DNA of 22,938 nucleotides from a virus. Made by a program: the position numbers and the translations under genes. Positions 2-18,179 of the stretch are shown here, piece by piece; within the stretch, counting starts at the first letter, position 1; each line of letters begins with the position of its first letter. The notes under the pieces are model-generated. The model ran no database searches. It saw nothing but the letters and a program-made list of their open reading frames with translations, and had not been told where the DNA came from. The DNA lies in IMG/VR virus record IMGVR_UViG_3300010037_000005, positions 1-22,938 of that record; one strand, given 5' to 3'.

Positions 2-112
2 GTAACCACCTTCTTGTACCCAACCTCTTACTACACTACAAAGCTTATCACCTTTATAGAAGTAACATTTTTCACAAGTGGTACCCTCATTAGCATATAC
101 GTTAGCCTGGCA
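2..112 (-). other. Open -1 reading frame with CxxC motif; likely true continuation of the QueC-like ORF or of the next gene
   Basis: The 518-residue ORF ends at a TAG at 33-31. The -1 frame has a TGA at 115-113 and is then open for 37 codons to the window edge. It reads like real protein: it contains TTCEKCYFYKGDKLC, a CxxC plus a third Cys, then GWVQEGGY. No ATG, GTG or TTG start lies between the TGA and this motif, so it cannot easily begin a separate gene here. If a -1 shift occurred around 105-112, for example one G missing from the GG at 107-106 on the minus strand, the preceding residues YVDA would run straight into it. This would give one protein ending in a Cys-rich module. Sequencing error, natural mutation or programmed frameshifting are all possible. 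Confidence 0.45.
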
Positions 113-1587
113 TCAACATAACAGGCACCTTCGTAGCTAGTCTCTTGACCATAAACACCATGTTGTTGTACTTGAAGTTGTACAGCAGCAATTGTTTGTT
201 GCCAGTAAATATTGTCTCCCATTTTCTTAATGGGCTCGGTATTGTCGGATGGCGTTTCAGTTTGTGCAGCTTGCTCTTGCTTCTCCTTCTCTTCTCGCTC
301 TTCCTTTTCCTTTATCCTACGTGGTAGAAAATTCTCTTCACTGATAGCTTTACTAGTAAGTTTAGTTTCAAGTTCTCTAACAAAGGATATGCAAGTACTA
401 AAGTCATCTTGTTGGTCATCTGTTAGACTAGACCACCAACCATTAAAAGCCTTCCAGGCATATCTACTTTCTTTCCATACACGATCTACTGTTAGTTGAA
501 GCTGCTCAGGGATAATATGTATGTCTGGATTAAAGTTTTGAAATCTAGGATCTACTCCATGTGGTATAGCTGCTAGACGTAGTAAACAAGATTGACAGGC
601 TCCACAGAAGATATGAGTGGTACCGTAGAAATGTGTTTGTTCACAAGATTGAGTTGAAGCGTAGAGATAAGGTAACTTATCAACTGTTGCTTTAATTACT
701 TGCTCAGTAGTATGCATCCGTGACTTCTCTAACTGAGGAGCATATAAAGGAATACCGGTAAGCTCACGAAACCCATCAATCAATTCTGCATTACAATCGT
801 GTTCAGTATCATCTCTTTGTATGCCTAATAGTAGTGGTTGATCAGGACACAGAATAGACCCATGTACTCCTAAGAATAGATTGTTGAATGACTTACTCCA
901 CATTCGTAAATGCTTAAAGATCTTGAATGCGTGATTGCCATAAGTAAGGTTTATTGAAGTATCGTAAGCCTTATCAAATATTTCACATAATGCCTTTACG
1001 GATTGCTTTTCATTCCAGATACCCTGTGCAAATGAAGATTGTCCATAAGCAATAGTTAGGGCATCACATTGACCTTGATATTGACAAAGTAAAGCAGTTG
1101 AATCAATACCTCCGGATAAGAGAACAACAGGTCGACCTTGTATTTCATTACGAGGATTGATAAAGTCGTTTTCAAATACAATCTTTACCCCTGCGTATAT
1201 TGTTAGCAATTCATCTAAGTGTTTAGGAGTAGGATGCTCAGTATTACCTATTACTGATCTAGTGGTCTCTGAAGCAAAACGAGCAACAAGTAATCCTTCT
1301 AATAAGCCTAAACGTACGTCATCTAAAGTAGATGGATTAGGTACATGTAAGATTAACTGAGCAATACGACTATTATTATGATCAAACAATTCTATATCTA
1401 ATTTGTTAAGATTAGTATAAGACGATTTATTCGTCTTAGCCGTAACCTTTAACTGGCCATCAGTGCTAGGTACGTATACGTGTCTGTGAGTTAAAGTACT
1501 AGTTTTCTGTAACCAAGACGTTTCATCTACTACACTCTTCTCAAGATAGAAAGAGTCATTGAACATATGGTTATGAATAGTAAGCAT
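31..1587 (-). CDS. queC: QueC-like 7-cyano-7-deazaguanine synthase with large N- and C-terminal extensions
   Basis: QueC enzymes convert 7-carboxy-7-deazaguanine to preQ0 using ATP and ammonia. The middle of this protein (about residues 153-348) carries the family signature: PP-loop SGGIDS at 158-163, a downstream AYGQ, a GIQRDD segment near 255-260, and zinc ligands C315, C328, C331 and C334 in the CGACQSCLLR context, followed by GVDP. Typical QueC is about 220-230 residues; this ORF has 518. The first 150 residues are an unrecognised domain and lack the Cys2 expected of a class-II amidotransferase fusion. After the QueC part come a Lys/Glu-rich linker (about 425-440) and a tail of unknown type. 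The start is ATG at 1587 with a strong AAAGGAG 7 bases upstream, and the gene follows the 135-residue gene by 12 bases. The last ~25 residues may be wrong because of a frameshift (see 2-112). It sits in the head-gene region, far from dpdA. QueC assignment is good; the flanking domains are unassigned. Confidence 0.8.
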   Translation of the reverse strand: MLTIHNHMFNDSFYLEKSVVDETSWLQKTSTLTHRHVYVPSTDGQLKVTAKTNKSSYTNLNKLDIELFDHNNSRIAQLILHVPNPSTLDDVRLGLLEGLLVARFASETTRSVIGNTEHPTPKHLDELLTIYAGVKIVFENDFINPRNEIQGRPVVLLSGGIDSTALLCQYQGQCDALTIAYGQSSFAQGIWNEKQSVKALCEIFDKAYDTSINLTYGNHAFKIFKHLRMWSKSFNNLFLGVHGSILCPDQPLLLGIQRDDTEHDCNAELIDGFRELTGIPLYAPQLEKSRMHTTEQVIKATVDKLPYLYASTQSCEQTHFYGTTHIFCGACQSCLLRLAAIPHGVDPRFQNFNPDIHIIPEQLQLTVDRVWKESRYAWKAFNGWWSSLTDDQQDDFSTCISFVRELETKLTSKAISEENFLPRRIKEKEEREEKEKQEQAAQTETPSDNTEPIKKMGDNIYWQQTIAAVQLQVQQHGVYGQETSYEGACYVDARLTYMLMRVPLVKNVTSIKVISFVV

Positions 1588-1599
1588 TAAACATCTCCT

Positions 1600-2007
1600 T
1601 TATACACGAACACCCGGCATAGTTTTAGTATAGTCAATTAAGTAATATCCCTTAGTTTTAAGATACTGATCTAACTGTCCAGGTGCTATTTTAGTTAGAG
1701 GTACTCGTACGATTATATACCGACCGGCAGTTTCAGTATTTTCATCTAGAACTTCAGCATCTTCAGTTGGTTGTAAAAAGGTACTTACAGAAACACCGTC
1801 AGCCTTTAGAGTATCTAACTCTTTTATAAAGTTTTCATCCCTGTCTGGAGTAATCATCATGCGACTTTTAGTCCATTGCCACTGACCGACTCGCTGTCCA
1901 AGTAAGTTAACAATAATACCCTTACGGGTAATATTCATAATTTTAGCAATTTTACTGAAGGCGCTACTAAGCTGTTCTAATGTTGGGACTGTTTTTAGTT
2001 CAGCCAT
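1600..2007 (-). CDS. Hypothetical protein in head-gene cassette
   Basis: A 135-residue protein that I do not recognise. It lies between the MuF-metallopeptidase gene (14 bases upstream) and the QueC-like gene (12 bases downstream), so it is probably co-transcribed with the head genes. The N-terminal half is mixed helical and basic (around ITRKGIIVNLLGQRVGQ). The C-terminal half has a short beta-rich stretch (YIIVRVPL) followed by an amphipathic segment and YYLIDY. No signal peptide, membrane segment or Cys cluster is visible. The start is ATG at 2007 with only a weak AAGGAT-type ribosome binding site about 14-19 bases upstream. By position it could be a small head-completion or scaffold-type protein, but nothing in the sequence proves that. 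Confidence 0.7.
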   Translation of the reverse strand: MAELKTVPTLEQLSSAFSKIAKIMNITRKGIIVNLLGQRVGQWQWTKSRMMITPDRDENFIKELDTLKADGVSVSTFLQPTEDAEVLDENTETAGRYIIVRVPLTKIAPGQLDQYLKTKGYYLIDYTKTMPGVRV

Positions 2008-2021
2008 ATGTATATCCGTTA

Positions 2022-4910
2022 TTATCCTTTTATTAATCGATCTATTTCTTCAGGAGTAATATCTAAACCATTTTCACCGAAGATATCAGTTACTGTGTCT
2101 AGATCATCCTTTAGTAAAGTACGTAAGATATCAGTCATCTTACCATTATATTTCCAGTGAGCTACATGCGGGGTACTAATGTAAGTCGAAAACCATTTCT
2201 TAAAGAAAGCTGCCGGACTTGCTAAACTCTCAGTACTTAATATCGGTGCATTCACTAACCGCTTGAATACATAAGGTATTTCATCATTATCCTCATACAT
2301 TTTCATCCATCCCTTGATACTGAACTTCTGAGTACCAGCATCAATACTTTGGATATACTCAGATAGTAGACCTGCGGCATCTGCTGTAGCCTCGTCAGCA
2401 TCACTATCGACATCTTCCATAATATCTTCCATATCTGCTAAGACTGTTCGTAAAGAGTCTAGAACTGATTCTTCATATACTTTACGAACCTTCGGCTGTA
2501 TCTTCCTGTTTCTAGCATATACAGATGCTCCAACAGCATCAGTCATTTCGGCTATTCGATTTTCTGGTACAGCATGCTGCCATTGACTATAGTTAATATA
2601 TAAAGTATTATCTTCAAAAAGAGAGACAGCATATTTGTTCTTAGTCAAGCGACCCATTTGTTCAGAGTCAATAATAACAATATCAGCATTCTCAATAAAC
2701 TCATGGCGAAAGAAATGTGGATTATGCTTAACAGTTTCTTTCATAGCAATTGCTATTTCAGCTTTAGTAACCGCAGATGTATTGATTGTTATTCGTTCTA
2801 GTAGTTTACTAAAAGTGCTGTTGGGTAAGAATACATTATCATAGTTAAAGTCCAATAAGGCATTTCTCATCTCAGGTGCTACTTGACTAGGAATATCTAA
2901 ATATTTCTTTCCTGTTTTAGCCGAGATAAATAATTCAGGAAATAACTTACCCATTTGCTGCGTAATTTCTGGATTATAAATCATAGCCGCTTTTGGATTA
3001 AGAACTATTTGTGAAAACAACTCTGCCCAGTATTCATTAACATCATGTAACGAATAACTACTAAATAACTGGCCTCCTTCTTCTAGCATAATACCAGTAG
3101 ATTCTAATAAATCACTAAGTTGCTTTAGAATACCCCGATGCCCCAGACCCCCCTTCACACCACCTCCCCCTATTTGCATATTCCAAAGATCATGAAACAT
3201 GGTAGTTGGCTTCTCAATGATCCAATTTTTAATAATATCTATACCTACATCAGTCTTATACTGTGCAATAAATTGGGCTCGGAAATCAGGATCGTCTATA
3301 GCCTGTAAAAGTTTAGTACCAACTCTATGGACTAATGAGTCATAATGTGAATTTAATAGAGTTGATAACTTTTCAGTTGCTTCTTTTGTTACGGTATTTT
3401 CAGCCCAACCACCAGCTATGCGAAAATCTAAAGCGCCAAATGAGTGCTGTATGTCGGTGGGGTAGAACCATAGACTATGACCTAACTCATGAACTAGAGT
3501 TTTCATACTAGCTTTAAGAATATCAGCAGGAATCTCAGACCTAGGTATATAAGGATCTATACTACCTTCACTGGGTAGTTCTCCTAGTTTGTATTTATCG
3601 TAGACTTTAGCATCAACTTTAATATATACGACAATATCATTTGCATGCATAACACGCTTGCCTGCTACTTCCGCTGGTGTTAAATGAGTAATGCCTCCAT
3701 AAGACTGCCAGCCTCCTTCTGACCTTTGGATATCAAAACTAACACCCCTCCTTCCAAATCCTGGGCCAAGCACACCCTCATCGTCAGTTATAGCAAAGTC
3801 ATCCAGGTGTTGCCATAAATCTTTACGTCTAATAGTAGGTTCTTCTGCCATCCAATCTAAGATCCATTTGGGTGTCTGTCCTTCTCCTGACCCGATCCAG
3901 TTCTTTGAGGCAAACATACCCTTGAATTCATCAGGAGTCATGTTAGGATCAATCTTCCAATGATCCGTATCCGCAAGTGTTTCTGCCGTAAAGATAGGAG
4001 ATGCAGATCTAGCTCGTGGAACAACACGATTACTTTGAACAGGTGATAGATGGCACTTACAATTACCACCACAATCAAGCATTACCGATCCGGGCATAGT
4101 ATTTGTATCAATCAACATATTAGGATCATATACACCCGGTGTACCGTCTACGCCTGGAGCTATTGCTAAATTTAGACAATCATAACTATGACTAACTCCG
4201 TCAAGTAAAACCCATTGTACTAAAGCTTTCTGAGCTTCTAAACCCATTGAATGTAAAGCAACATTAAGCATTCCTACTTCACTAGTAAAAGTATCATAAC
4301 CAATTGAAGTAGCAATGTTTGAATAAGCACGTAGTATGCTATTAAATCTAGTCAGAGTATTATTTATAGCTTCAAAGCCATCGAAGGGTTTATTGTCATC
4401 TAACTCACGTTGTACTTTATCTCGATAGGTACTAACAAAACGACTATCGAAGGTATCTAGATACTGATCACGGATCTTATTTTGCTGCTCATCGTTTAAT
4501 CCGCGTAGTGCAAAGGTATCTCTAAAGTAACTATCTCCAGCTGCGATACCTTGACCAATAGTATTTGACATCACTGCTCGAGCTGTCGTGAAATACTCAT
4601 CAAAAGGACTAGGGCGTTCTCCGGCATCTTTTCGTATATATAGACTAGCTAACTTTCTTTTGTATTTTTCCCAAGCAGGTAATAACTTTTTATAAGTACT
4701 CTTTCTAATACGTTGAAGAGTTAGATAGTGAGTATGTTCCCTTTCAGGCACATACATGAGATTAGCTATAATCTCGGGATCGTCTGGTTCTGCTGGATCA
4801 TCTAATAAAGTAGCAGGGATTGATTTATCCTCTACAGGTTCATTTGCAAGACGTAAATGCTGTTCAAGTAAACCTAGGCGATTTTGACCTTGGGGTTCAA
4901 ATTGTAACAT
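2022..4910 (-). CDS. MuF-like minor head protein fused to an HExxH zinc metallopeptidase domain
   Basis: Phage Mu F-type proteins are minor head components encoded just after the portal, as here (TAATG overlap with the portal stop). Residues about 60-295 resemble the MuF domain: helices followed by WVLLDG...C245 and a C280/C284/C286 cluster ending in CHLSPV, matching the family's Trp-Asp-Cys pattern. MuF proteins often carry C-terminal effector domains. Here a second domain (about 310-650) has HELGH at 474-478 and a downstream NEYWAELFSQ (625-634), which together look like a gluzincin zinc site with Glu626 or Glu630 as third ligand, in the style of anthrax-lethal-factor-like domains. The remaining roughly 310 residues are unassigned, with an acidic patch around 850-870. 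The whole protein is 962 residues. Whether the peptidase acts on capsid proteins during assembly or is delivered into the host cannot be told. MuF call good; peptidase call strong on motif; fold inferred. Confidence 0.75.
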   Translation of the reverse strand: MLQFEPQGQNRLGLLEQHLRLANEPVEDKSIPATLLDDPAEPDDPEIIANLMYVPEREHTHYLTLQRIRKSTYKKLLPAWEKYKRKLASLYIRKDAGERPSPFDEYFTTARAVMSNTIGQGIAAGDSYFRDTFALRGLNDEQQNKIRDQYLDTFDSRFVSTYRDKVQRELDDNKPFDGFEAINNTLTRFNSILRAYSNIATSIGYDTFTSEVGMLNVALHSMGLEAQKALVQWVLLDGVSHSYDCLNLAIAPGVDGTPGVYDPNMLIDTNTMPGSVMLDCGGNCKCHLSPVQSNRVVPRARSASPIFTAETLADTDHWKIDPNMTPDEFKGMFASKNWIGSGEGQTPKWILDWMAEEPTIRRKDLWQHLDDFAITDDEGVLGPGFGRRGVSFDIQRSEGGWQSYGGITHLTPAEVAGKRVMHANDIVVYIKVDAKVYDKYKLGELPSEGSIDPYIPRSEIPADILKASMKTLVHELGHSLWFYPTDIQHSFGALDFRIAGGWAENTVTKEATEKLSTLLNSHYDSLVHRVGTKLLQAIDDPDFRAQFIAQYKTDVGIDIIKNWIIEKPTTMFHDLWNMQIGGGGVKGGLGHRGILKQLSDLLESTGIMLEEGGQLFSSYSLHDVNEYWAELFSQIVLNPKAAMIYNPEITQQMGKLFPELFISAKTGKKYLDIPSQVAPEMRNALLDFNYDNVFLPNSTFSKLLERITINTSAVTKAEIAIAMKETVKHNPHFFRHEFIENADIVIIDSEQMGRLTKNKYAVSLFEDNTLYINYSQWQHAVPENRIAEMTDAVGASVYARNRKIQPKVRKVYEESVLDSLRTVLADMEDIMEDVDSDADEATADAAGLLSEYIQSIDAGTQKFSIKGWMKMYEDNDEIPYVFKRLVNAPILSTESLASPAAFFKKWFSTYISTPHVAHWKYNGKMTDILRTLLKDDLDTVTDIFGENGLDITPEEIDRLIKG

Positions 4911-9201: not shown

Positions 9202-10185
9202 TTATTGAACAGTAGGAGGCATAGTTTCAAATACTTGAATAGCATCATGCATCATGTTAGTAAGATTAAAAGGAGCTCTGTGTGCCCATATCTGTCCTGC
9301 TGAACTACAGGCTAACATACCACAATCAAAGTTACGACGAGCTCTCATCTCTGTGCGTACTATTATAGGATCTTCTGCAACATCATGTAGCTTTAAGCTA
9401 ACTACTGCTTTTGAGAAAGCATTAACAACATCTAGAGTAGTTCGAGGATAGCCGCATCCTACTTCAATTAGACCATCTACGGTAGCAACAGTTAATTCCT
9501 TCTGTTGCTTCTTACGCACACAATAGCGAATCCAATCAACAGTATCTACTACGTGAATGTAATCTCTAGAAGGCGTACCATCTTTAGTCTCGTAGTCATT
9601 ACCGTTAATGTAAAAGGGTTGTCTAGTTTTCCAGGCTTTATATAAAGCAGGTAGAGCATGAACTTCATTTTTACGAAGCTCACCTAAACCCTTATAACCA
9701 CCACAGTTATTAAAGAAGCGGAATAGTAAGGCTTGATCTTTTGCTTTGTGTGCTCGTAACCATCTAATAGCCATCTCTTTAGTTTCTACATAACTGCTGT
9801 CAGGTACGCCTAAGGCAAGTGATGTAGTAGGGAAAACAAACAATGGAGGCTCAGCCATGCTTATACATTCTTCAAAGATCTGCTTAGTCATATCTACATT
9901 AGTAGCAATCAACTCGCTTACAGGTCTAGTTAAATCACCAGTCGCAGCAGCAAAGTGAAAAACTACTTGAGGTTTCACTTCATCTAATATACCCTTGATA
10001 CCATTCATACAATCAAGCTCAAGTACCTTGATACCGAACTCTGCTAGTCTAGGAGCATTCAAGCCACGAGCGTAACTATCGATTCCAATAACTCTCCAGC
10101 TTGATTCCTTTAGTCTAGCAGCCATGACGGCTCCTACAAAGCCGCAGGCACCTGTTATTATAGCAGTAGGTTCTTGTGTTAACAC
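9202..10185 (-). CDS. NAD-dependent nucleotide-sugar epimerase/dehydratase, GalE-like
   Basis: A full-length (327-residue) extended short-chain dehydrogenase. The Rossmann NAD site is GACGFVG (12-18), followed by FHFAAATGD near 77-84, the catalytic pair Tyr132/Lys136 in SYVETK, NNCGGYKG (159-166) and DGTPSRDYIHVVD (202-214), which is almost the diagnostic GalE segment. GalE-type enzymes invert or remodel the sugar of UDP-hexoses. The substrate cannot be read from sequence. The start is GTG at 10185, with GGAGGAG just upstream, and it overlaps the end of the 113-residue gene by 7 bases. In a phage such an enzyme could feed DNA glycosylation, or decoration of a virion or host surface glycan; no glycosyltransferase is visible here. 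Confidence 0.82.
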   Translation of the reverse strand: MLTQEPTAIITGACGFVGAVMAARLKESSWRVIGIDSYARGLNAPRLAEFGIKVLELDCMNGIKGILDEVKPQVVFHFAAATGDLTRPVSELIATNVDMTKQIFEECISMAEPPLFVFPTTSLALGVPDSSYVETKEMAIRWLRAHKAKDQALLFRFFNNCGGYKGLGELRKNEVHALPALYKAWKTRQPFYINGNDYETKDGTPSRDYIHVVDTVDWIRYCVRKKQQKELTVATVDGLIEVGCGYPRTTLDVVNAFSKAVVSLKLHDVAEDPIIVRTEMRARRNFDCGMLACSSAGQIWAHRAPFNLTNMMHDAIQVFETMPPTVQ

Positions 10186-12561: not shown

Positions 12562-12981
12562 CTATAGATGATTTTCAGTCTTATGTAAGTCGCGTCTGTT
12601 AAGAGACATTAACATTTTACTTTTCATATCAAAGGCTATAGCTATCTTTGATAGTATTTTTGCTGAACGTTGCATATTTAGTAGCTTATCTTGTTCAGCT
12701 AGCCATTCTTCATCTTCACGACATGCTCTTTTAATATCTGCTTCTTTAGCTTCTCCTTTCGTATTTCCAGATTTAACCGCACGAGCTACTTTCGTCTCAA
12801 CAGTGGATAGTGTTAACTCTAGCTTTTCCGCGTAGAGTTCAGCTTCAACAGCTAAGTTACTGTAGTGAAAATAGTATGAGGCTACACTGGCTAATTCATG
12901 TTGTATGTTAGCTTCGTTAATACGTAGTAAACTGTCGATGGTTTTTAAGTCATGATCGGTAACAAAAGATTCGTCAGACAT
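12562..12981 (-). CDS. UvsY-like recombination mediator candidate
   Basis: A 139-residue, almost wholly helical, charged protein with no Cys cluster except one Cys near residue 86. T4 UvsY is 137 residues and loads recombinase onto gp32-coated ssDNA. This protein shares the size, a helical N-terminus followed by a long basic/coiled segment (VARAVKSGNTKGEAKEADIK), a CREDEEW patch and a final helical stretch ending in MKSKMLMSLNRRD. It is immediately upstream of the gp32-like and recA genes. The ATG at 12981 overlaps the dpdA stop by 8 bases and has AAAGGAAA upstream. The assignment depends mainly on context and architecture; direct similarity is weak. Confidence 0.5.
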   Translation of the reverse strand: MSDESFVTDHDLKTIDSLLRINEANIQHELASVASYYFHYSNLAVEAELYAEKLELTLSTVETKVARAVKSGNTKGEAKEADIKRACREDEEWLAEQDKLLNMQRSAKILSKIAIAFDMKSKMLMSLNRRDLHKTENHL

Positions 12982-13825
12982 AACTTTCCTTTCGGATATA
13001 TGTAGGGTTATAATAATGAGCGTACATCTCTATTAAATCGTGCATGTTTTGTCTTATAGAGTCACACATCTTAGTAGATATAAAAGCTGTTAAGTCAACA
13101 TTTAGTCGAGTAGCAGGTCGTGGATCAGTAATACGTATATCGTATAAGGCATATAAAGTAGCCCACCGAGTATCAATAGTTAAACCGCGCTCACCTGCAT
13201 ATCTTAGTTCGTCGATAGAATTCATACCTAACATATGTATTTGCCTAGAACTCCCTACTAAGTCTAACAATTTATCTATGAAAGTAATTCTAGCTTCTGT
13301 ATATTGATCACCTGTTAAGTCTTTATGTTTAGGATTAAAGAAAGTACATACTCTCGGTACTCCAATAACTTTAATGTTAGGATGCATCAATGTTAAAGTA
13401 ACTTGCTTCAATGCTTCCTCAGTTGTCTTACCCTGCAGGACGTACATAAGTGCTTGATGTCGTAGTACGTCGTGTTTCTTTAATAGAGATAAATAGTCAA
13501 TTAGGTTATGCTTTGTTTGTTCACTTTCATTTAAGGAATCAGGTATAACTAATACTTGTGGTTTAAGTAAACAGGCTAGTCTTAGATAACGTACACCGAA
13601 GTGAGGATCTCTCGAAAGATGGGCCTCTGGGTTATTCAAATCTGGAGAAGCACCTACACCACAATCCAGTATAGTAGTTTCTGTAGTAGCTACGTTAATG
13701 TAACGAAGATACTCTGGATCTTTTAATAGATCAGGAGCTTCGACAAACATTAAATTAGTACTAGGTAGTTTATCGTTTTCAAACAATGATAAAGGTATAG
13801 GTTGATATATACCTGGCTTAAGCAT
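12974..13825 (-). CDS. dpdA: DpdA-like 7-deazaguanine DNA transglycosylase
   Basis: DpdA is a tRNA-guanine-transglycosylase relative that exchanges guanine in DNA for a 7-deazaguanine base. The 283-residue protein shows the phage DpdA pattern: TTILDCGVGASPD near 50-62 (compare the family's LDNG), LVIPDSLNESEQT near 92-104 with a probable catalytic Asp, YVLQGKT, KVIGVPR, and the closing HMLGMNSIDELRYAGERG followed by IDTRWATLYAL. Size suits the short phage forms, which lack the bacterial C-terminal zinc domain. The ATG at 13825 is chosen; an in-frame TTG one codon earlier is nearer the GGAGGAG site and is possible. It overlaps the upstream P-loop gene by 8 bases and the UvsY-like gene by 8 bases, so all three are coupled. 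The chemical form of the base added is not predictable from this gene. Confidence 0.78.
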   Translation of the reverse strand: MLKPGIYQPIPLSLFENDKLPSTNLMFVEAPDLLKDPEYLRYINVATTETTILDCGVGASPDLNNPEAHLSRDPHFGVRYLRLACLLKPQVLVIPDSLNESEQTKHNLIDYLSLLKKHDVLRHQALMYVLQGKTTEEALKQVTLTLMHPNIKVIGVPRVCTFFNPKHKDLTGDQYTEARITFIDKLLDLVGSSRQIHMLGMNSIDELRYAGERGLTIDTRWATLYALYDIRITDPRPATRLNVDLTAFISTKMCDSIRQNMHDLIEMYAHYYNPTYIRKESYV

Positions 13826-14360
13826 CAAGGGGTTCTCCTCCCTCTGGAATATAAGGTAGACCTAAGATATTAGCAATCTGTTGTACGCGATCTTCAACAG
13901 TACCAGTAATAGTATTGTAAGGTACTCGGTGATAATCTAAGATTCGTTTAATCTCTTGATCCACTTCTTGTTGAAAGTCTTCACCTTTGAATCTTTCACC
14001 ATCATCAACTAAACCAAATTCAACGGGTATGTAAAAAACCTCATTATAGTTGATATGTTTAAGTGCCCACATCCATCGTTGATCGTGATGCCAGAATCCT
14101 ACTGTTAGATGACTATAAGCTAAAGTATCATAAATAGATCGAGAGGCAATATAATTTCTCTCCTTCCAATGATTCCAGATATACCAATTGTTAAGTTTAG
14201 TCTGCTTCTTCTTTCGAGTCCATTTTGGATTATTATGGATAGCCCTAGCAGTACCGTCCCAAATAACATGTTCCGTACAGATTGGAGGATATCTCTCTAC
14301 TAAAGCTTTCAGTAGAGTACTTTTTCCAGTACTATGAGCTCCAGTAAACACAAGTCGCAT
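13818..14360 (-). CDS. P-loop AAA/NadR-like kinase-type protein
   Basis: A 180-residue single-domain P-loop NTPase with GAHSTGKST (7-15), the variant Walker A loop of NadR-like and AAA_28 proteins, which include nucleotide and nucleoside kinases. A helical RNYIASRSIYDTLAYSHL (about 88-105) resembles the segment that holds the DR or SR acceptor-binding residues in small kinases, and the C-terminal part has FKGEDFQQEVDQEI, a lid-like region. Substrate is unknown: a (deoxy)nucleotide, a base precursor or an RNA end could each fit. Start ATG at 14360 with GGAG 7 bases upstream. It overlaps dpdA, which raises the possibility of a role in the modification pathway; this is only context. Confidence 0.65.
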   Translation of the reverse strand: MRLVFTGAHSTGKSTLLKALVERYPPICTEHVIWDGTARAIHNNPKWTRKKKQTKLNNWYIWNHWKERNYIASRSIYDTLAYSHLTVGFWHHDQRWMWALKHINYNEVFYIPVEFGLVDDGERFKGEDFQQEVDQEIKRILDYHRVPYNTITGTVEDRVQQIANILGLPYIPEGGEPLDA

Positions 14361-14375
14361 AATGAATCTCCAGTA

Positions 14376-14882
14376 TCAAAAAATTGGAATTACGTTATTA
14401 AATCTAGCAAACTCTCCAAAGTGTTCCCGAGCAGCTCTGTTATATATTCGAGCTGCTTCTTCTTCATCTTTAGAACTGCCTAGATAAAACCATTTACGAT
14501 TTACACCAATACCCACAACCCAACTACGTCGGTTCCAATATACACCTTTATATTGACTAGTACAAGTTTGAGAGTTATATGTCTTACTCTTAATACTATT
14601 ACTACCATTTTGCGACGCTGTGGCTACTCTTAAATTAAATCGTAAGTTATTTAAGCTATCGGTATCTTTATGATCTATCCTTTGTCTTGATTGAGCATTC
14701 ATAATTATTCGATGTAATTTAACAGCTCCATTATTTCCCCAAGTAGTTGGATAATAACGACCTCCATTTAGTTCACCATACCAAGTACGTCCAATAACTA
14801 TAGTTTCGTACACATCTCTATCTACCAAGAAAGCTAGTTCTGGTTTATTAGATAATACAACATAAACTCCCATGGTATGCAT
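14376..14882 (-). CDS. HNH homing endonuclease with AP2-type DNA-binding domain (copy 2)
   Basis: A 168-residue free-standing endonuclease. An N-terminal region (1-50) is shared with the gene at 17617. The HNH site follows: His57 in LHRIIMNAQ, Asp70-His71 in IDHKDTD, then Asn83 in LRFNLRVAT and the SQN tail, matching HNH_3. The C-terminal AP2-like domain runs about 109-162 (YKGVYWNRRSWVVGIG...FYLGSSKDEEEAARIYNRAA). AP2-HNH proteins cut an unoccupied allele and spread by repair. The start is ATG at 14882 with AGAGGT 5 bases upstream. It separates the small membrane gene from the kinase gene. The paralogue at 17617 shows this is a mobile family within this genome. Confidence 0.85.
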   Translation of the reverse strand: MHTMGVYVVLSNKPELAFLVDRDVYETIVIGRTWYGELNGGRYYPTTWGNNGAVKLHRIIMNAQSRQRIDHKDTDSLNNLRFNLRVATASQNGSNSIKSKTYNSQTCTSQYKGVYWNRRSWVVGIGVNRKWFYLGSSKDEEEAARIYNRAAREHFGEFARFNNVIPIF

Positions 14883-17616: not shown

Positions 17617-18150
17617 TTAGAACCTTGGAGTTACTTCATTCAATTTAGCAAATTCACCATAGTATTGTTGAGCAACTCTATTATACATACGAGCTGCTTC
17701 TTCTTCGTCTTGAGTAACACCTACATGAATCCATTTTCCATTAGTACTAATTCCTACGAGCCAATGATTACTAGTCTTTGTTCGATGCCAAGATACTCCT
17801 TTGAATCGACTAGTACATCGTTGTTGTCCATAAGTTCTTCTTTTCTTACCATTAGTTTGATTTTGACTGCTAGTAGCAAAACGCAGATTCTCTCTTAAGT
17901 TATTTAAGCCATTCGTATCTTTATGATCTACTATTTGTCCTTTTTGGGCATTCATAATCAAACGATGTATTGGCATAAATATTCTAGGAAAGTTCTCCCC
18001 TTTCTTACGATAAGTCGCTACATAATATCGTTGTCCTGTTTCGTCCCATATACCAAACCATTTCCTATGTCCATAGGTTTCATAGATATCTCGATCAACT
18101 AAAAAGAATACTTCGGGTGCCTTATGTAAAGGTAAATAAACTCCCATCAT
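17617..18150 (-). CDS. HNH homing endonuclease with AP2-type DNA-binding domain (copy 1)
   Basis: A paralogue of the gene at 14376, about 177 residues, with the same order of parts: shared N-terminal region (MGVY...FLVDRDIYET), HNH site (IHRLIMNAQ, VDHKDTN, Asn in LRENLRFAT) and AP2-like domain (FKGVSWHRTKTSNHWLVGIS followed by VGVTQDEEEAARMYNR). The start is uncertain: ATG at 18150 has AGCGGA 6 bases upstream, while a TTG at 18156 would give the MHxMGVY N-terminus seen in the paralogue. It lies between dut and the polymerase gene, whose ribosome site is inside its last codons. Such endonucleases are commonly inserted next to polymerase genes in phages. Confidence 0.85.
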   Translation of the reverse strand: MMGVYLPLHKAPEVFFLVDRDIYETYGHRKWFGIWDETGQRYYVATYRKKGENFPRIFMPIHRLIMNAQKGQIVDHKDTNGLNNLRENLRFATSSQNQTNGKKRRTYGQQRCTSRFKGVSWHRTKTSNHWLVGISTNGKWIHVGVTQDEEEAARMYNRVAQQYYGEFAKLNEVTPRF

Positions 18151-18179
18151 ATGCAATCCGCTAAGTCATTGAAATCATT

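Follow-up and report, generated by a model that had tools for sequence, protein, structure and literature searches.

The QueC scaffold, originally one of base synthesis, has repeatedly been recruited for different couplings driven by ATP, one of which is the modification of proteins in defence against phages (PMC13279940, PMC13329287). Formation of preQ0 by E. coli QueC requires Y35, R99, Y131 and Y189 (PMC13329287). Cap9 performs protein conjugation, and QatC, in which N- and C-terminal extensions surround a QueC core, is thought to do so as well (PMC13279940, PMC13329287). A precedent for DNA modification is phage 9g, in which Gat-QueC and DpdA put dG+ into DNA (PMC6884629). Here, we describe a QueC-like ORF at one end of a window of 22,938 bases (the whole stretch of DNA that was analysed), which is a complete virus record, i.e., a genome fragment. 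The ORF represents a new phage QueC subfamily with a unique N-domain, a divergent core and a predicted helical C-terminal region. The features discussed below are the following:

31..1587, minus strand: QueC-like ORF, 518 codons as read, continuing in the +1 frame to a true C-terminus beyond the contig
1138..1587, minus strand: N-terminal domain (residues 1-150), shared with the 404-aa homologue of contig L110
568..1137, minus strand: QueC-like catalytic core (residues 151-340), from profile matches and a fold match
1099..1116, minus strand: SGGIDS pyrophosphate-binding loop (residues 158-163), from an alignment with 24 QueC rows
586..645, minus strand: zinc-binding Cys cluster C315-x12-C328GxC331xxC334, from alignments
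349..567, minus strand: C-terminal region (residues 341-413), DPRFxNFN and then predicted helices
217..348, minus strand: Lys/Glu-rich linker (residues ∼414-457), absent from the homologue
2..216, minus strand: extra C-terminal module, in the ORF frame to 112, then in the +1 frame off the contig
1600..2007, minus strand: 135-aa gene after MuF, with homologues in L004, L107 and L110-L112
2022..4910, minus strand: MuF-region head protein with a HELGH metalloprotease-like motif, from translation and synteny
12974..13828, minus strand: DpdA-like DNA guanine transglycosylase, 284 aa, from phrog_19058, a profile and TGT-type residues
13818..14360, minus strand: P-loop (thymidylate-kinase-like) gene overlapping the dpdA-like start, also found in a lineage without DpdA

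Reading Frame and the C-Terminal End

As read, the QueC-like ORF (31-1587, minus strand) has an ATG start and 518 codons. The first-pass annotation had taken these as a protein of 518 residues; the ORF has been upheld, but its full length has not, as codon usage loses the frame at ∼112. Log-odds derived from the other genes of the window are positive throughout in the ORF frame down to position 112, whereas at positions 34-111 they fall to -4.9, against +5.2 for the +1 frame. The latter reads CQANVYANEGTTCEKCYFYKGDKLCSVVRGWVQEGGY and runs to the contig end. Thus, the last 26 ORF residues are out of frame and the true C-terminus is off the contig; the break may stem from recoding, from a genuine mutation or from faulty sequencing close to the end of the contig. 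As the window is a fragment, the region downstream of the ORF is unreadable within it. Two frames score alike around residues 207-232, but the idea of a compensating frameshift there has been dropped, since the homologue carries RxWxKxFxN in frame. With a frame break ∼110 bases from the contig end, one may also think of an assembly artefact that joined unrelated pieces at the contig edge, which is highly improbable, as codon usage is unbroken from the start to position 112 and a homologue with the same domains occupies the same locus; an artefact would concern the last 26 codons alone and is excluded for residues 1-413.

The Lys/Glu linker and the further module annotated behind the core are both present, apart from the out-of-frame residues at the end, and in the +1 frame the module shows a CxxC...C motif. 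This Cys piece resembles the tail of the capsid maturation protease of Actinomycetia phage DSL-LC01, whose gene lies two genes before the major capsid protein. The database match is weak (E 0.7), and the pairwise score of 9 SD above shuffles is inflated, as the target had been chosen by the search; for the piece preceding the Cys piece, comparison with the DSL-LC01 protease has given no match beyond chance. Judged from the sequence, this last module, part of which is out of frame, probably represents a distinct Cys module of the head region and not a QueC domain.

A Homologue at the Same Locus

Scans with the QueC-like protein itself in IMG/VR, INPHARED and the GTDB genomes have yielded no close relative, and alignments built with canonical QueC have pulled in canonical QueC. 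Matches at 27.7% from INPHARED and plasmids proved to be bacterial QueC from Acinetobacter contigs. The entry labelled Acinetobacter phage MD-2021a (L005, CAKLQF020000007.1) looks like a bacterial chromosome (cysUWA, dapD, queE, queC). A scan with a two-sequence portal alignment gave 19 loci, of which 18 were new. In one lineage, three contigs, L110 (103 kb, of which the first 16 kb were read), L111 and L112, encode identical QueC-like proteins (407-codon ORF, 404 aa from ATG, N-terminus MSI), which are ∼34% identical to the window ORF (E 2.6e-61) and score 24.3 bits with PF06508.

Common to both copies are the core motifs SGGxDST, GQSxFxxGxWxE, RxWxKxFxN, DDxxHD and PYxYASTxSC...CGxCxSCLLRLxA, the N-domain motifs GxxEGLxVARFAxE and LLxxYxxxxxVFExD, and the C-terminal region, which is conserved most clearly at DPRFxNFN...IP. 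Since the N-domain and the first C-terminal part are kept in the homologue, they define the subfamily and belong to the gene. The homologue terminates at the very point where the Lys/Glu linker of the window copy starts, which makes the linker and the last module an extra of the window lineage.

The gene order in L110-L112 is portal, MuF, 135-aa gene, 302-aa HESGH gene, QueC-like ORF, Peptidase_S78 prohead protease and SU10-type major capsid protein. In the window, a MuF-region gene and the 135-aa gene are found upstream of the QueC-like ORF, as had been annotated, and the L110-type relative bears out the placement in a head-gene block, with protease and capsid genes following. Zinc-metalloprotease-like motifs recur in the head blocks of the window and L110, namely HELGHSLWF in the MuF-region protein (window 2022-4910) and HESGHAVYD in a separate gene beside MuF (L110:9120-10025). 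The place of QueC is taken in L004 (14467-14922) by a 151-aa protein with an MGSN start and two CVxRK...AxAxSxC repeats. Elsewhere in the window, two similar HNH/AP2-like genes with the look of homing endonucleases (14376-14882 and 17617-18156) flank the polymerase region as apparent duplicates, and the replication block contains a NAD-dependent nucleotide-sugar epimerase (9202-10185) with a counterpart of 40% identity in L113 and none seen in the examined parts of the L110/L112 and 65-kb relatives.

A Divergent QueC Core

Homology of the core to QueC is seen with several profiles. PF06508 matches the ORF with 34.6 bits (cut-off 22), the SGGxDS loop and the zinc Cys cluster being present, and the loop is invariant except for the x position in an alignment with 24 QueC rows; the PADLOC QueC model covers residues 153-337, phrog_1550 residues 148-340, and hhalign probabilities of the core against canonical QueC are 98.7-99.0% (98.7% for 43 canonical QueC proteins). 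The cut-off of TIGR00364, the preQ0 synthase equivalog, is missed by far (23.4 vs 150.3 bits). The full-length AlphaFold model is fair in the core only and poor elsewhere; the best PDB match of its core is B. subtilis QueC (3bl5), with QueC rows included in the input alignment, and the N-domain modelled alone has given no usable fold (pLDDT 39). In the tree, the cores of window and L110 form a branch of their own with support of 100/99, apart from canonical, phage, Gat, Cap9 and PfkB-linked QueC. As long as the window sequence stood alone, its long branch made the trees unstable; the Cap9 affinity of the first one (92/77) moved when more phage QueCs were included and was replaced by the separate branch once the homologue had been added. 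Among other phage proteins encountered, L121 2462-3301 is another SGGxDS protein, and Pseudomonas phage Iggy (L101:1501-2562) has a 353-aa QueC within a QueE/QueD/FolE cluster, a protein whose zinc Cys cluster has been lost and which bears its own C-terminal extension.

Comparison With Described QueC Systems

Canonical QueC (PF06508 cluster 1, 7-cyano-7-deazaguanine synthase) is the closest profile to the window ORF (hhalign 99%) and shares its fold, SGGxDS loop, zinc cysteines and the YPDC Asp. It differs in the Tyr131/Tyr189 equivalents and Arg99, which the window ORF lacks, and in the extra terminal domains of the latter, besides the separate branching. Gat-QueC of the phage 9g/JenP1 type is likewise a phage gene with an extended N-terminus that co-occurs with DpdA, but its extension is a class-II amidotransferase starting with MC. 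The window N-domain is shorter; it begins with MLT, in line with the annotated ∼150 N-terminal residues without the amidotransferase Cys2, and a Gat-QueC origin has been discarded on the basis of these starts (MLT in the window, MSI in the homologue) and an hhalign probability of 2%.

QatC of the qatABCD defence system is comparable in having a QueC core with N- and C-terminal extensions in ∼400 residues. Its extensions are dissimilar to those of the window ORF, though the cores are detectably related, and the window ORF has neither the threonine pair nor the CxxRR zinc variant of QatC and also misses the QatC cut-off of NCBIfam NF041925 (15.1 vs 280 bits). Against the QatC extensions, 46/150 and 24/150 shuffles scored as high as the N-domain and the C-terminal region, respectively; homology of the flanks, suggested by a full-length alignment at 23.6% in which the pre-core segment aligned, was rejected after such domain-only tests had given nothing. 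QatA, QatB and QatD were not found among the window genes scanned, the contig ending 30 bases downstream of the QueC-like ORF. With Cap9 of type IV CBASS the window ORF shares the QueC core, but Cap9 is a short core form of ∼185-200 residues without extensions in a CBASS operon with a CD-NTase. No CD-NTase/cyclase has been recognised among the window genes, and, in place of an adjacent TGT-like Cap10 gene, the TGT-like gene is 11 kb off and DpdA-like. A Cap9-like Cys-Glu at the zinc site of the window copy was set aside, as it is not conserved in the homologue.

Beyond these systems, both terminal regions have shown only chance-level matches in Pfam, PHROGs and INPHARED phages. Judged from these comparisons, neither the N-domain nor the segment behind the zinc site is a regular component of any established QueC subfamily, and their conservation at the homologue's locus ties them to this gene.

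Active Site

Regarding the residues required in E. coli QueC, Y35 corresponds to Y181 in the window ORF and to His in L110, R99 to N235 and Arg, and Y189 to E316 and Gln, while Y131 is without a counterpart in the window-ORF alignments. The YPDC Asp is kept as D264, within a subfamily motif DDxxHD that stands in place of YPDC. From its motifs, the QueC-like protein is likely to use ATP and not likely to perform ordinary preQ0 synthesis; with the preQ0-required tyrosines missing, the product is probably not ordinary preQ0. For the same reason, the suggestion that the added domains give new chemistry appears plausible.

A DpdA-Like Gene and Its Linkage to QueC

The best clue to the function of the QueC-like protein is the DpdA-like gene at 12974-13828. 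Its product has no Pfam match; it matches phrog_19058 at 2.2e-5, a strong member of which (3.3e-56) is the annotated phage DpdA QQO91982, and it matches a four-member DpdA-like profile with 96%, a value reached by 0/100 shuffles. D55, D97, H198xLG and D219 are kept. As no profile match to the 9g-type DpdA is detectable, the DpdA label rests on the link to phrog_19058. The phage DpdA-like transglycosylases of phrog_19058 and phrog_20335 (immuto, phiST, MA9V-3, BSP7) share the profile and key residues with the window protein, at only ∼20% identity; in each of these four phages, the gene lies with at least two of FolE, QueD and QueE. In phiST and MA9V-3, no QueC has been seen beside the DpdA-like gene. 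A P-loop kinase-like gene adjoins the DpdA-like gene in several unrelated phages (L062:11502-11999, L016:7297-7767, L063:5441-6004).

The two genes have been observed to be present or absent as a pair. On a single contig, L112 combines a DpdA-like gene flanked by the kinase and g139 genes with a QueC-like gene that follows the 135-aa gene, i.e., both in the same relative places as in the window. Synteny of the window with a 65-kb relative (IMGVR_UViG_3300023223_000769) extends over primase, polymerase, kinase, g139, SSB, RecA, PDDEXK, terminase, portal, MuF and the 135-aa gene, yet searching that record in full with each protein and each family has revealed neither QueC nor DpdA. In this relative, the kinase and g139 genes abut where DpdA would sit, and the 135-aa gene is followed by genes for a 151-aa protein and an AAA ATPase. 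Joint gain or loss of QueC and DpdA, seen across three lineages, is the main argument for joint action. Counting against a shared 7-deazaguanine pathway are the distance of 11 kb between the genes, the changes of residues essential in E. coli QueC, and the lack of a detectable QueC in some phages with this DpdA type, such as MA9V-3. FolE, QueD and QueE have not been recognised on the 23-kb fragment, which likewise counts against it; a supply by the host is possible.

Weighing the Explanations

The substrate, the product and the partnership are what we infer from these data, and we lean, by a narrow measure, towards a variant QueC that makes or modifies a 7-deazaguanine base which the DpdA-like enzyme puts into the phage DNA. 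With ATP bound at SGGIDS, the QueC-like enzyme would adenylate 7-carboxy-7-deazaguanine (CDG) on its carboxylate, the substrate being gripped by the conserved Asp264, and hand the acyl group on to an amine; the DpdA-like enzyme would then exchange the resulting base for guanine, and the modified base may protect the phage DNA from host nucleases. The pair would thus probably serve to disguise the phage genome. Unlikely, by comparison, is another PP-loop reaction, either acting on the base after DpdA or coupling another amine (amino acid, polyamine) to CDG to give a hypermodified base. It would agree with the missing preQ0-specific tyrosines next to a remaining ATP loop, zinc site and base-recognising Asp, and with the conserved DDxxHD in place of YPDC, but no additional modification genes have been identified.

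Precedent from Cap9 and QatC, along with the remodelled active site that the window ORF has too, brings up protein conjugation, in which a deazaguanine or related acid would be attached via the extra domains to a partner, perhaps a head protein, at its N-terminus. We regard this as unlikely: the flanks are no more QatC-like than shuffles, the core lies outside QatC, Cap9 and the other QueC groups, the Cap9-like Cys-Glu is lost in the homologue, and the neighbours start with MA (135 aa) and ML (MuF), whereas known substrates need Met-Gly. A QueC core that is enzymatically dead and acts as a virion or capsid-assembly domain appears less probable still. The location directly before the prohead protease and capsid genes in the relative, the loss of the R99 equivalent in the window copy and the fused Cys module resembling a capsid protease tail would be consistent with it; yet both copies keep the ATP loop and all four zinc Cys, and the homologue is free-standing and retains the Arg-Asn pair. 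Moreover, L004 has a head block without QueC, and in L108 the protease genes follow the portal with no QueC between. As the QueC-free relative keeps the surrounding head genes, the position in the capsid block is not evidence of virion association.

Implications

Relative to the known QueC families, it is probably the chemical step and the extra protein domain that are new. In a bolder version, to which we give a low probability, a QueC-family enzyme with a dedicated substrate-binding domain would join CDG to an amine other than ammonia (amino acid, polyamine, head-protein N-terminus), leading to a new DpdA-inserted hypermodified base or a deazaguanylated virion protein, in a phage and not in a defence system. 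Genes for deazaguanine modification can sit in a capsid-gene block, where they are easily overlooked. A phage QueC branch that combines an N-domain of its own and a remodelled pocket for the base with a DpdA-like partner offers a testable phage-side use of the scaffold and possibly a DNA base not yet described.
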